DNA of 22,791 bases from positions 1-22,791 of IMG/VR virus record IMGVR_UViG_3300032284_003024. The stretch is one strand, 5' to 3'. Position numbers and translations under genes: made by a program. The stretch comes from a virus. Each line of letters begins with the position of its first letter. Within the stretch, counting starts at the first letter, position 1. The notes under the pieces are model-generated. The model was not told the DNA's origin and made no database searches. It saw only the letters and a list, made by a program, of their open reading frames with translations. Below, piece after piece: positions 1,356-11,652 of the stretch.

Positions 1356-1482
1356 GGGGGTATAGCTCAGCGGCAGAGCGGAGGTCTCCGAGAATGCAGG
1401 TTAGCCTTGCAAGGGTTCGATTCCCTAAGTTCTTGTCCGAATAAACCTTTGGTCCCTGGTTCGAACCCAGGTGCCCCCACCA
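1356..1482 (+). tRNA. tRNA with a ~52-nt insertion in the anticodon loop (anticodon uncertain)
   Basis: The ends form a normal tRNA: acceptor GGGGGTA (1356-1362) with TGCCCCC (1472-1478), discriminator A, encoded CCA; a D arm; anticodon stem GAGGT (1381-1385) with ACCTT (1445-1449); T arm CCTGG-TTCGAAC-CCAGG. The anticodon loop is 59 nt (1386-1444) instead of 7, so about 52 nt must leave. The identity depends on the cut: CTC|ATAA gives anticodon CAT (Met or Ile2), CTCC|TAA gives CCT (Arg), CT|AATAA gives AAT. CAT and CCT tRNAs are known intron hosts in bacteria, but through much larger group I introns. Whether the tRNA is matured or is dead cannot be decided here. Confidence 0.8.
1389..1440 (+). 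ncRNA. Small structured insert (intron-like) in the tRNA anticodon loop
   Basis: Boundaries are drawn for the CAT reading. The insert folds by eye into a three-way junction: closing stem CGAGAA (1389-1394) with TTCTTG (1430-1435); hairpin TGCAG-GTTAGCC-TTGCA (1395-1411), with a 7-nt loop like an anticodon arm; and hairpin AGGG-TTCGATT-CCCT (1412-1426), a canonical T-arm sequence. It thus resembles a tRNA lacking the D arm, nested in another tRNA. No group I core elements fit in 52 nt. It could also be the relic of a tRNA recombination. Confidence 0.6.
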
Positions 1483-4618: not shown

Positions 4619-5404
4619 TTATGAAAGCTTTTTCTTTTTAGTTAAACCTTGTCTCCATCCGTTTGGAATATGAGAATTTTTCAAAACTCTCATATTTTTA
4701 ACTCCGTTGGTTATATTCATATATTTTTTATTGGTTTGTCTTATTTTTTCTCTAGTGGAAAGAGATTTTGGCAAACGAATGGATACATTTTCAATTACTG
4801 TAAAGATATTTTTGTTTATTCTTTCTTGCAACATATCTAAAGTAATGCAAGATTTATCACCTTTTTGAGAATTTTCACTATTGCTTATGAATCGACAATT
4901 CATAAAATGAGAAATTATTGTAGGATCAATTTTATTACGCCATCCATATTCTACAGATACCATATGGTCTCGACAAACACCATTTTGATTTTTGGTTGGA
5001 TGAAATATTCCCCATGATAATAAAAGGTCATAACCGGGTATTTGAGGCATGCTATATGGATCAAATTGAAAAGCACATCTTTTTTTATACTGCGCTTTTT
5101 CATCGGTTAGTGATCTGCCAGTTTTTTTATACCAGTTATTAATGGCATCTTTGGTAGATAACAGTTTCATGTTAAGACATTTTTTCAAAAACATTCCAAA
5201 ATCAGAATATTCGATGCCATATTCTTTTTTAATATCAGACGGTGACATTCCTGATTTCAAGTGTTCTTGAAAAATTGCCCTGACTTTACTAACATGTTCT
5301 TCTGTCACTAATATATTTGATTTTAGATTTAAAACATTAACACAAAGTTTTATAAGTGCATGCTTCTTTTTTGGTACAAGTTTTTTCATATATGTATTTA
5401 TCAT
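4619..5404 (-). CDS. HNH homing endonuclease
   Basis: About 261 residues. The C-terminal two thirds share the HNH block of the gene at 2185: YKKRCAFQF, then CRDHMVSVEYGWRNKIDP, then NC...NSENSQKGDKS; the DH pair, the NC asparagine and the later asparagine are all present. The N-terminal part differs: no zinc motifs but a helical, probably DNA-binding region, followed by a basic tail rich in Arg/Lys. The start is uncertain: ATG at 5404 and ATG at 5389 are both possible and neither has a ribosome site, because the flanking tRNA half begins four bases upstream. A late-promoter box (5395-5402) overlaps the start, so the late message may be leaderless or start at 5389. Confidence 0.8.
   Translation of the reverse strand: MINTYMKKLVPKKKHALIKLCVNVLNLKSNILVTEEHVSKVRAIFQEHLKSGMSPSDIKKEYGIEYSDFGMFLKKCLNMKLLSTKDAINNWYKKTGRSLTDEKAQYKKRCAFQFDPYSMPQIPGYDLLLSWGIFHPTKNQNGVCRDHMVSVEYGWRNKIDPTIISHFMNCRFISNSENSQKGDKSCITLDMLQERINKNIFTVIENVSIRLPKSLSTREKIRQTNKKYMNITNGVKNMRVLKNSHIPNGWRQGLTKKKKLS
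5395..5402 (-). promoter_or_regulatory. Late-promoter-like box overlapping the HNH start
   Basis: GATAAATA on the minus strand at the extreme 5' end of the HNH reading frame. Unlike the other endonuclease genes, no leader or ribosome site lies between the box and the gene. Confidence 0.4.
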
Positions 5405-5407
5405 CAA

Positions 5408-9275: not shown

Positions 9276-9848
9276 ATGTTTTGTTTTAGAATTGATCCCG
9301 ACGAGTTGTACCTACAAGTTAGTATGAACTGGCCTGATTGGCTGCCTTGGTGGAACAATACATATCGGTGGTATAAGGATTGGCTATGCACTGAACACAG
9401 TGCAGCCGAAATCCAAATTGAGGGCAATTGGAACTGCTTGTTTGACTTTACATTCCAAATGACCCGTCGCAGTGATCATGGCGGAGTTAGACTGCATCTA
9501 GGGTTGCTCAAGCATTGGATCGCCTTGAGTTGGTACGATACCAGGCATTGGAACCACGATGAGAATCGTTATTATAATAAGGAAGATTATGATAACCAGA
9601 TGTATACCGTAGAAGATGCTGCAAAGATGATTAATGATCTTGCACAGCAAATCAAAGGTGGTATGAGCGACAAGGATCTTGCTCAATTGCACAAAAATCT
9701 TCCACATAAATCTTGGGCAACAGCTATTGTTGGCAAGCTTGCCGAGTGGCAATATTCCACCGAAGCCAAACGACTGGCAGATATTATCTGGAATAACGAA
9801 GTGAAATATGCATGGTGGAAGATAGAAAAAGGTCCTAAGGCTCAATGA
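9276..9848 (+). CDS. Hypothetical protein, Trp/Tyr-rich
   Basis: 190 residues, unusually rich in Trp and Tyr in the N-terminal 110 (WPDWLPWW, WYKDWL, HWIALSWYDTRHWNHDENRYY), followed by a helical C-terminal part. The ATG at 9276 has no ribosome site and lies only three bases after the terminator; the ATG at 9324 is the alternative. I kept the longer form because RIDPDELYLQV looks coding. Its stop codon overlaps the next start (ATGA). No cysteine pattern, signal or membrane segment. Function not recognised. Confidence 0.6.
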   Translation: MFCFRIDPDELYLQVSMNWPDWLPWWNNTYRWYKDWLCTEHSAAEIQIEGNWNCLFDFTFQMTRRSDHGGVRLHLGLLKHWIALSWYDTRHWNHDENRYYNKEDYDNQMYTVEDAAKMINDLAQQIKGGMSDKDLAQLHKNLPHKSWATAIVGKLAEWQYSTEAKRLADIIWNNEVKYAWWKIEKGPKAQ

Positions 9849-10099
9849 GCGAAGTTGAATATGATTATTTGACCGAAAAGGAAGTGTTAAATGAAGCAAA
9901 AACCTATTGCTTCATGCGCGATACATTATATTTATATAGAGGTTTAACTTCTGGCAGAAAATCAAAAGATCCTATGCCTAAGGCTATCTTGAAAAGCCTA
10001 AATTTAGAAGAAGTTCGTACAATTATTACAGTTGTTAAATCAGATGGGTCAGAACAAACCAATAAACAGGTTGAATGGCGTAGGCGAAAAGTTATATAA
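9845..10099 (+). CDS. Hypothetical protein coupled to the preceding gene
   Basis: 84 residues; the start overlaps the preceding stop as ATGA, so translation is likely coupled. It contains charged helices and a basic end (WRRRKVI). No known motif. tRNA-Val starts nine bases after it. Confidence 0.6.
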   Translation: MSEVEYDYLTEKEVLNEAKTYCFMRDTLYLYRGLTSGRKSKDPMPKAILKSLNLEEVRTIITVVKSDGSEQTNKQVEWRRRKVI

Positions 10100-10108
10100 T
10101 AACAGCAT

Positions 10109-10184
10109 GGGCGGTTGGTTTGAGAGGTGAGACGCATCCTTTACACGGATGATTATGCAGGTTCGAGTCCTGCACCGCCCACCA
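10109..10184 (+). tRNA. tRNA-Val (TAC)
   Basis: Complete class I cloverleaf: acceptor GGGCGGT/ACCGCCC, D stem GTTT/AGAC, anticodon stem CATCC/GGATG with loop TTTACAC (anticodon TAC), variable ATTAT, T arm GCAGG-TTCGAGT-CCTGC, discriminator A and encoded CCA. This is the only fully ordinary tRNA in the window. Confidence 0.92.
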
Positions 10185-10200
10185 ACTAAGGAACAAACGT

Positions 10201-10386
10201 GTGGGCCGTGTACCCGATAAAATTTCTGACAAAATTACCTATTATGCTCTAGCATATTGTTTGGTATTTGTATATTATATTTCAAAACCCGTTCTTTATT
10301 TTTCTAAATGGATGAGAGAAAAACTAAAGCCAAAACATCGAGAACTAAACTGGTTAAGAAAGTTATCTGGTATACCACCAAAGTAA
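10201..10386 (+). CDS. Small membrane protein
   Basis: 61 residues from GTG with AAGGA at spacing about nine. A central hydrophobic segment (ITYYALAYCLVFVYYI) is followed by a strongly basic C-terminus (MREKLKPKHREL), which predicts a single membrane helix with the basic side in the cytoplasm. The arrangement is similar to the small protein at 17793. Function unknown. Confidence 0.55.
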   Translation: MGRVPDKISDKITYYALAYCLVFVYYISKPVLYFSKWMREKLKPKHRELNWLRKLSGIPPK

Positions 10387-10586: not shown

Positions 10587-10596
10587 TTGACGATAT

Positions 10597-10604
10597 TATA
10601 AATA
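10597..10604 (+). promoter_or_regulatory. Late promoter (TATAAATA) before tRNA-Gln
   Basis: Exact TATAAATA, lying inside a palindrome CGATATT-ATA-AATATCG, 22 bases before the tRNA. Confidence 0.55.
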
Positions 10605-10626
10605 TCGTGTAGTATATATTTGTTGC

Positions 10627-10775
10627 TGGGGAATCGTCTAATGGTAGGACCAGGGACTGGGTGAAAGTGTGCTATTCATACGCACATAGAACTAACATTA
10701 TGTTAGAGAGTGCAAATCTCAAATCACCAAAGATTGAATCCCTTTGTCTAGGTTCGAATCCTAGTTCCCCAGCCA
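10627..10775 (+). tRNA. tRNA-Gln (TTG) interrupted by a 75-nt intron-like insert
   Basis: Acceptor TGGGGAA (10627-10633) with TTCCCCA (10765-10771), discriminator G and encoded CCA, as in bacterial tRNA-Gln. D arm GTCT-AATGGTA-GGAC. Anticodon stem AGGGA (10652-10656) with TCCCT (10739-10743), T arm CTAGG-TTCGAAT-CCTAG. Removing 10659-10733 leaves the loop CTTTGAA with anticodon TTG, exactly canonical for Gln, and this is the only cut that does so. The interruption is therefore between positions 33 and 34. Confidence 0.85.
10659..10733 (+). ncRNA. 75-nt structured tRNA intron, cloverleaf-like
   Basis: By eye the insert forms a closing stem GGTGA (10660-10664) with TCACC (10724-10728), enclosing three hairpins: GTGTG...CGCAC (10667-10685), CTAACA-TTA-TGTTAG (10692-10706) and GAGA-GTGCAAA-TCTC (10706-10720, a T-arm-like 7-nt loop). 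This is a four-way junction, like a small tRNA. It has neither the size nor the ends of a group I intron (the last base is A, not G). The excision mechanism is unknown. Confidence 0.7.
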
Positions 10776-10777
10776 TT

Positions 10778-11461
10778 CTATTTTTCATATAACTGGTCTA
10801 TATTTTTAACTTTATATTTTTCTTTAACCCATTGAATATAAGGTTGTATTTTTATTTTATCAATTACATTGATATGAGAATTTTGCGCTAGTTTAGCTTT
10901 TGCTCTATTACACATATATCCTTTTATTTCGTACTCATCTGAATCAATAATAAAATCAGGAATATATTTTGATATTTTCCCTTTGTATTCATATGAATAT
11001 ATATTTTTTGATCTTTTTATATCAAAATTGTGATCTAGATGCCAAATTAAAAAAGCAAGCTCATATGTGCTATCACAGATAAAACCTTTATATTTTCCTT
11101 TACGCCCGCCGCCGTGCTTCTCCTGTATTAATGCATTAGTTGTAGCTAACTTTTTAAAACACTCACGCGAGCAGGTTTTTAATTTAGGTTTATTTTTTGT
11201 AGATCCACATACAGCACATACAGTAGAATTTCTTTTTATTATACCGCGTTCTATTTTTGTTTGTACTCCTCTTTTAATAGCAGTTGGGTCTTTCTGTACC
11301 CCTGTATAAAGTTCTTTCATACGTTTTTTAAATTCTATAGATCGAGGACCTCTACTATTTGCACAAGATTTACTGCAATAGGATTTAGTTCCCCATTTTG
11401 AATAGGCATTAAAAACTTTATTACACTTAAGACAGGGTTGGTAAATAGATTTGCTGATCAT
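10778..11461 (-). CDS. Homing endonuclease of PD-(D/E)XK fold with zinc motifs
   Basis: 227 residues. N-terminal paired cysteines (C10/C13, C29/C33; then C82/C85, C97/C101) form two likely zinc ribbons. The C-terminal domain has a conserved Glu (STYE, about 134), then YIPDF with D169 and YEIKG with E178 and K180: a PD-(D/E)XK nuclease site. PD-(D/E)XK homing enzymes are known from tRNA introns (I-Ssp6803I in a tRNA-fMet intron). The gene ends two bases after the CCA of tRNA-Gln on the opposite strand. The ATG has GAGGA upstream, a structured leader and a late promoter. Confidence 0.8.
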   Translation of the reverse strand: MISKSIYQPCLKCNKVFNAYSKWGTKSYCSKSCANSRGPRSIEFKKRMKELYTGVQKDPTAIKRGVQTKIERGIIKRNSTVCAVCGSTKNKPKLKTCSRECFKKLATTNALIQEKHGGGRKGKYKGFICDSTYELAFLIWHLDHNFDIKRSKNIYSYEYKGKISKYIPDFIIDSDEYEIKGYMCNRAKAKLAQNSHINVIDKIKIQPYIQWVKEKYKVKNIDQLYEK

Positions 11462-11523: not shown

Positions 11524-11570
11524 TAGACATACACATCTATTCGATGTAAACTAATAACAATATCTGTATG

Positions 11571-11652
11571 GGAGTTGGCTTAGAAGCAGCCAATAAGAGA
11601 TAAAGACCAACTTACCTTTAAAAAGATTTCAAGTTATAGACAAAAGGTAAGA
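11571..11652 (+). ncRNA. Leader with 23S rRNA helix-43-like element and anti-SD stem
   Basis: Bases 11574-11592 (GTTGGCTTAGAAGCAGCCA) equal, as I recall it, the E. coli 23S rRNA segment around 1059-1077: helix 43 of the GTPase-associated centre, bound by L11. The hairpin TGGC-TTAGAAGCA-GCCA is complete, and a UAAAGA-like segment follows. Two further pairings are visible: AGTTGG (11573-11578) with CCAACT (11607-11612), which would break the helix-43 hairpin; and CTTACCTTT (11611-11619) with AAAGGTAAG (11643-11651), which covers the ribosome site of the next gene. The two share bases 11611-11612. The layout is that of a translational switch. Confidence 0.7.

Follow-up and report, generated by a model that had tools for sequence, protein, structure and literature searches.

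How a phage tRNA can function when 75 nucleotides interrupt its anticodon loop is the question raised by the tRNA-Gln gene of IMG/VR record IMGVR_UViG_3300032284_003024. The window, the whole stretch of 22,791 nucleotides that was analysed, is a linear 22.8-kb fragment with genes for PrkA (YeaG-like), DUF444, an ADP-ribosylglycohydrolase, an IMPDH-like protein and several HNH-type endonucleases. Because its PrkA was 58-60 % identical to the PrkA of three uncultured phages of ~635 kb and 78-82 % identical to that of five short viral contigs, the window is probably a fragment of a large phage; apart from PrkA, its gene content had little in common with these relatives. Forty dinucleotide-shuffled windows gave neither plain nor intron-bearing tRNA calls, the real window three of each. 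One of the three intron-bearing calls, 1994-2190, was a misparse of a plain tRNA-Leu. The neighbouring protein 9276-9845 had no matches when used as search bait. The HNH-type gene next to tRNA-Gln is convergent to it, with its stop codon 3 bp behind the CCA. Together with 2185-2784 and 4619-5407 it forms a set of three HNH-type genes, all on the minus strand and convergent at the 3' ends of tRNA-Leu, tRNA-Leu and tRNA-Gln, and on a second contig treated below (L262) another HNH-type endonuclease gene (9502-10275, minus strand) adjoins an intron-bearing CAT tRNA. These pairs suggest tRNA-plus-endonuclease mobile units. Upstream of the ADP-ribosylglycohydrolase reading frame, at 11565-11620, lies GTTGGCTTAGAAGCAGCCA inside a longer stem GGgAGTTGG/CCAACTTaCC; the motif appears identical to helix 43 (the L11/GTPase-centre loop) of 23S rRNA. 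The element is a possible rRNA mimic and had no match in Rfam.

The tRNA-Gln gene, 10627-10775, reads TGGGGAA...TTCCCCA-G-CCA. All four stems are complete: acceptor 7/7, D 4/4 with one G-U, anticodon 5/5 (AGGGA/TCCCT) and T 5/5. Unspliced, the gene was missed by default ARAGORN and by Rfam. Exact removal of the insert yielded a clean 74-nt tRNA-Gln(TTG) that was accepted by ARAGORN, and restored the loop CTTTGAA, the commonest loop among phage tRNA-Gln in the fetched loci (18/51); as originally predicted, a tRNA-Gln(UUG) thus does carry a 75-nt insert in its anticodon loop. ARAGORN in intron mode moved the boundary by one and read a tRNA-His(GTG) cut at 34/35. This reading was ruled out by the identity elements U1-A72-G73, which, among phage tRNAs with encoded CCA in the fetched loci, were present in 8 of 11 Gln(TTG) and in none of the listed His(GTG). 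The best BLAST matches of the tRNA body were mostly annotated tRNA-Gln. Coordinates are collected in Table 1.

Table 1. Features of the two insert-bearing tRNA genes of the window and their surroundings
Feature	Position	Strand	Basis or remark
Sigma-70-like promoter TTGACG-17-TAGTAT upstream of tRNA-Gln	10587-10615	+	weak evidence
tRNA-Gln 5' exon: acceptor 5', D arm, anticodon stem AGGGA (10652-10656), C32, U33	10627-10658	+	direct reading
Gln insert (intron), 75 nt, between positions 33 and 34	10659-10733	+	exact removal restores tRNA-Gln(TTG)
Gln insert, closing (acceptor-like) stem GGTGA, partner TCACC at 10724-10728	10660-10664	+	MFE and centroid fold
Gln insert, first hairpin GTGTGC-9 nt-GCACAT, D-arm-like position, without GG	10667-10687	+	fold
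Gln insert, second hairpin CTAACA-TTA-TGTTAG	10692-10706	+	fold
Gln insert, T-arm-like hairpin GAG-TGCAAAT-CTC	10708-10720	+	fold
Gln insert, 5-nt tail AAAGA from closing stem to 3' exon	10729-10733	+	direct reading
tRNA-Gln 3' exon: anticodon TTG, anticodon stem 3', T arm, acceptor 3', G73, CCA	10734-10775	+	
HNH-type homing endonuclease gene	10778-11461	-	phrog_1271 HNH endonuclease, E 5e-8
CAT tRNA 5' exon, ends CTC	1356-1388	+	
CAT insert, 52 nt, between positions 34 and 35	1389-1440	+	L262 homologue
CAT insert, closing stem CGAGAA/TTCTTG, 6 bp	1389-1394/1430-1435		starts exactly at exon boundary
CAT insert, D-like hairpin TGCAGG..CCTTGCA, contains GG	1395-1411	+	
CAT insert, canonical T-arm AGGG-TTCGATT-CCCT	1412-1426	+	
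CAT insert, 5-nt tail TCCGA	1436-1440	+	
CAT tRNA 3' exon: ATAA, anticodon stem 3', T arm, acceptor 3', CCA	1441-1482	+	

Folded alone, the Gln insert reached -18.1 kcal/mol (z -2.9), and one of 200 shuffles was as good. The minimum-energy structure of the full-length precursor kept all four insert helices and paired the anticodon strand differently, thus prediction leaves the exon fold of the Gln precursor unsettled. That the insert is no group I intron was borne out by its size of 75 nt, its final A instead of G and the lack of an Rfam match at E 10. The predicted T-arm-like hairpin was found as well (GAG-UGCAAAU-CUC), with a stem of 3 bp. The description as cloverleaf-like is only loosely fair: a 5-bp acceptor-like stem and a T-like hairpin are present, but the T-like stem has just these 3 bp and the D-like loop lacks GG. 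Searches of IMG/VR with exact insert patterns and with tRNA-Gln exons separated by a gap of 60-90 nt revealed no relative of the insert, the helices of which are predicted from one sequence. The three 635-kb phages with a related PrkA have several tRNA-Gln genes, and all those recognised were intronless. The search with a covariance model of the Gln gene, a kind of check suggested along with the original prediction, detected the Gln insert in none of 58 PrkA-baited loci, but retrieved from the window itself a second insert-bearing tRNA, 1356-1482, which the original prediction did not contain.

This second gene is a CAT tRNA (Met or Ile2) with an insert of 52 nt. Its boundary was placed at 34/35 rather than 33/34, on the basis of sequence, because removal then restores the loop CTCATAA, found in 65 of 89 phage CAT tRNAs. 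The fold of the CAT insert was unremarkable by energy alone (z about -0.9). None of 84,980 prokaryote species genomes contained its core. A further CAT tRNA of the window, 1545-1628, with a long variable arm and the odd T-loop GGCAGTA, was overlooked by ARAGORN. A pattern search for CAT tRNAs with a gap of 35-65 nt found the same CAT tRNA on L262, a 14.2-kb contig from another sample, at 9371-9500, with a 51-nt homologue of the insert at 9406-9456. The two genes form a 131-nt stretch of 88.6 % identity, the sole DNA similarity between the window and this contig; one protein matches at 34 %. As the CAT tRNA is the only DNA common to two otherwise different contigs, this distribution suggests horizontal transfer of the intron-bearing gene. 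Compensatory changes were observed in the exons (acceptor stem, G-C to C-G; anticodon stem, A-U to G-C), and in the closing stem of the insert one A-U pair had become G-C and two other pairs switched between G-U and G-C (wobble changes); one anticodon-stem pair was broken. Altogether 98.6 % of the cells in the alignment were paired, in contrast to at most about 52 % when the sequences were slid; for two sequences the shuffle control of covariation is weak, with 55 of 500 shuffles reaching the score. The closing helix and the exons keep their pairing in L262, and this supports, short of proof, that the CAT insert is a maintained RNA element and no chance insertion.

An alternative is that the inserts inactivate the genes in which they lie, either dead tRNAs on the way to loss or genes carrying the remains of a degenerate group I intron or a tRNA insertion. 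The 5' exon taken with a portion of the CAT insert scored as a weak tRNA (Rfam, 22.4 bits), thus the inserts could stem from partial tRNA copies, and homing endonuclease genes adjoin tRNAs in the window. However, the exons are flawless with CCA encoded, and in the unrelated L262 both the CAT tRNA and its insert survive, with compensatory changes. In addition, the insertion sites of two different inserts are no more than one anticodon-loop position apart. We regard inactivation as quite improbable.

Introns of comparable kind have been known from phages since 2019, and the unprecedented status claimed at first is not supported in that form. The accessible text of Devoto et al. (2019, PMC6784885) describes tRNAs with 'enigmatic introns' in Lak megaphages, one of which 'itself may encode a tRNA', and both intron-containing and intronless alleles, with the intron precisely absent in some; the accessible text of a study from 2026 (PMC13037316) reports tRNA introns 'that could encode another tRNA' from many alternatively coded jumbo phages. 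A mechanism for phage tRNA introns was given neither in these portions of the two papers nor in the later literature searched. New here is that six introns of Lak-A2 and one other phage, a 235-kb IMG/VR phage (G047, L241), in tRNAs Gly, Tyr, Tyr, Thr, Lys and Arg, have a common plan. The anticodon is followed by a 4-6-bp hairpin with a mostly 6-nt loop and an A/U-rich linker; then comes an acceptor-like helix of 7-9 bp, enclosing a D-like GG stretch and a T-arm, and after 1-2 nt the 3' exon. Five of the six are inserted at 36/37, and the Arg intron fits 33/34. Anticodon stems were paired 5/5, acceptor-like helices 7/7 to 9/9 and T-stems 4/4 or 5/5, in a count by hand that favours pairing and was adopted because MAFFT gave no structural alignment of the six. 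None of the six acceptor-like helices contained an unpaired position, and each position showed 3-4 types of pair. Energy z-scores were -2.4 to -3.3 in four introns and about -0.6 to -0.9 in two, and a canonical TTCRA T-hairpin occurred in five of eight tested inserts versus 0.05-1.4 % of shuffles. Acceptor-like helix and T-stem add up to 13 bp in five of the six, nearly the same as the 12 bp found in a tRNA. The tRNA-like part of these introns is thus the 'top half' of a tRNA, an acceptor-like helix stacked on a T-arm, and this is the part that RNase P and RNase Z recognise. The nested tRNA-like domain proposed for the Gln insert gains weight from the CAT insert, its L262 homologue and the Lak-type introns.

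Several ARAGORN intron calls with inserts of 15-38 nt were set aside; by eye they appeared to be class II tRNAs, the variable arm being long. Additional T-arms inside or close to tRNAs (L079 9170-9325, L141, L185, L125, L139, L153, L169) had exon boundaries too vague for inclusion, and this set is biased, since most were found with a pattern demanding two T-arms. Two RNAs of ~141 nt, L241 10041-10181 and L124 5162-5302 (minus strand), have tRNA ends (acceptor, T-arm) around an odd middle, in which AGAAAAAGA and GTTACTTC..GGTTAA are common to both; they are possibly a conserved tRNA-like RNA of large phages. Two tRNA-Leu-like genes of L247 (minus strand, 550-727 and 2533-2728) carry a D-loop hairpin insert flanked by ACAAGC/GCTTGT and also an apparent insert in the anticodon region.

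The inserts might also stay in the mature RNA, as a tRNA body with an enlarged anticodon arm, e.g., an anticodon-nuclease decoy or a regulatory tRNA-like RNA. Both inserts are folded, the structure of the CAT insert is conserved, and we know of no splicing enzyme for such inserts; host anticodon nucleases are a documented defence (PMC7824862). Retention is nevertheless unlikely, as canonical loops return on exact removal in both window tRNAs and in the Lak-type genes, the exon stems including the acceptor are kept by compensatory change, and the intron is precisely absent from some Lak alleles according to the accessible part of PMC6784885. For the two tRNAs to work, the window inserts would have to be excised. 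The analysis shows that the exons are intact, that the inserts fold and that the CAT insert has a homologue bearing compensatory changes; we infer that splicing of the window inserts is likely to occur.

A self-splicing RNA smaller than known intron ribozymes would agree with inserts that are compact and structured and with the little variation of the ends within the Lak type. No ribozyme or intron family of Rfam, group I and group II introns included, was matched at E 10 or E 5, the Gln and CAT inserts have no conserved core in common, and to our knowledge all splicing ribozymes are far larger than 52 nt. Moreover, a CAT tRNA of phage contig L260 has at the same 34/35 site a plain hairpin of 35 nt, which leaves no room for a catalytic core, and self-splicing is therefore very improbable. 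As L260 holds a plain hairpin, a T-arm is not needed for an insert at this site. Least credible of all is an intron of archaeal/eukaryal type, cut by a splicing endonuclease at a bulge-helix-bulge. Position in the anticodon loop and size are similar, but no bulge-helix-bulge was present at the boundaries (central pairs at most 3/4 for Gln and 1/4 for CAT), the window sites are 33/34 and 34/35 and not 37/38, and we know of no bacteria with a tRNA splicing endonuclease of this type.

We consider it probable that the inserts are small introns whose tRNA-like fold is seen and cut by endonucleases and that a phage ATP-dependent RNA ligase seals the exons. In the precursor the tRNA would fold, and the intron would form its own tRNA-like domain, composed of closing helix, T-arm-like hairpin and D-like hairpin, which hangs from the anticodon stem. 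Cellular or phage endoribonucleases would recognise this domain and cut it off at the base. The anticodon stem would keep the exon ends together, and a ligase of the Rnl1/Rnl2 type could then join them. As for the enzymes, we infer a more specific version only tentatively and think it rather doubtful: excision of the nested domain by host RNase P and RNase Z (or a 3' activity), with sealing of the exons by phage RNA ligase. The 5' cut, where the acceptor-like helix begins, would be made by RNase P, and the 3' cut by an RNase Z-like activity. Both enzymes leave 3'-OH and 5'-P ends, thus no Pnkp (kinase) would be required. At its 5' end the helix falls exactly on the exon boundary in the CAT insert, with an offset of 1 nt in the Gln insert; at its 3' end the offset is 1-2 nt in Lak-type and 4-5 nt in window-type inserts. 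If RNase P cut at the Lak-type helix, the 5' exon would retain about 27 additional nt; after a plain RNase Z cut in the window inserts, 3-4 nt would stay attached to the 3' exon. The boundaries taken together are not explained by any one simple scheme with two known enzymes.

The original prediction also involved pnk and rnl genes, of which none was recognised among the scanned reading frames of the window. ATP-dependent RNA ligases were encoded in all eight larger phage records, namely five with clear inserts or candidates (Lak-A2, Lak-C1, G047, G050 and G051) and the three 635-kb phages, whose tRNA clusters held no recognised insert of this kind. In G047, one ligase gene is located inside the tRNA region. 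Three fragments of 54-71 kb showed no RNA ligase gene. Enzymes of this type seal 3'-OH to 5'-P ends and are common among jumbo phages (PMC7824862), thus their presence fits the proposed route but cannot discriminate.

Bacterial tRNA introns are thought to be self-splicing ribozymes. The phage inserts are too small for this, yet their fold is kept and the tRNA exons remain undamaged. Should they be spliced, phages would possess a protein-based route of tRNA splicing not known so far from bacteria, and repair of damage from host defence may not be the sole role of the abundant phage RNA ligases. If the reading with RNase P and RNase Z were true, the intron would be excised as if it were a tRNA. 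The pair of CAT tRNAs and the common Lak-type plan offer small, testable substrates for a question dating from 2019.

Among known systems, group I introns of bacterial and phage tRNAs share the insertion in the anticodon loop. The window inserts differ from them in their lengths of 75 and 52 nt and in having no core, no terminal G and no Rfam match. An apparent group I intron, with core-like motifs read by eye, was seen in L114 (19445-19755), a tRNA with a 235-nt insert. The archaeal/eukaryal bulge-helix-bulge introns are likewise small tRNA introns, spliced by proteins, but differ in site and in the motif itself, which is absent here. The jumbo-phage introns of PMC13037316 represent the same phenomenon, with neither structure nor mechanism given in the accessible part of that paper. 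Like the Lak introns, the window inserts are small, lie in the anticodon loop of a phage tRNA, contain a tRNA-like domain with a T-arm (weaker in Gln), restore the tRNA by exact removal and belong to no Rfam intron class. The Lak-type plan has a 5' hairpin and linker, then a helix that stacks on the T-arm, and reaches its 3' boundary 1-2 nt after this helix. The window inserts are smaller, sit at 33/34 and 34/35, start the closing helix directly on the 5' boundary or 1 nt away from it, lack a separate 5' hairpin, carry a 3' tail of 4-5 nt, and reach 8-10 bp instead of 13 bp for acceptor plus T helix. A 5-6-bp helix with 3 nt before it and a 5-nt tail set them outside the Lak-type subgroup. Since T-arm and closing helix are common to both and the remaining plan is not, the two window inserts belong, as a variant, to the broad kind of 'enigmatic' tRNA introns of Lak and jumbo phages.
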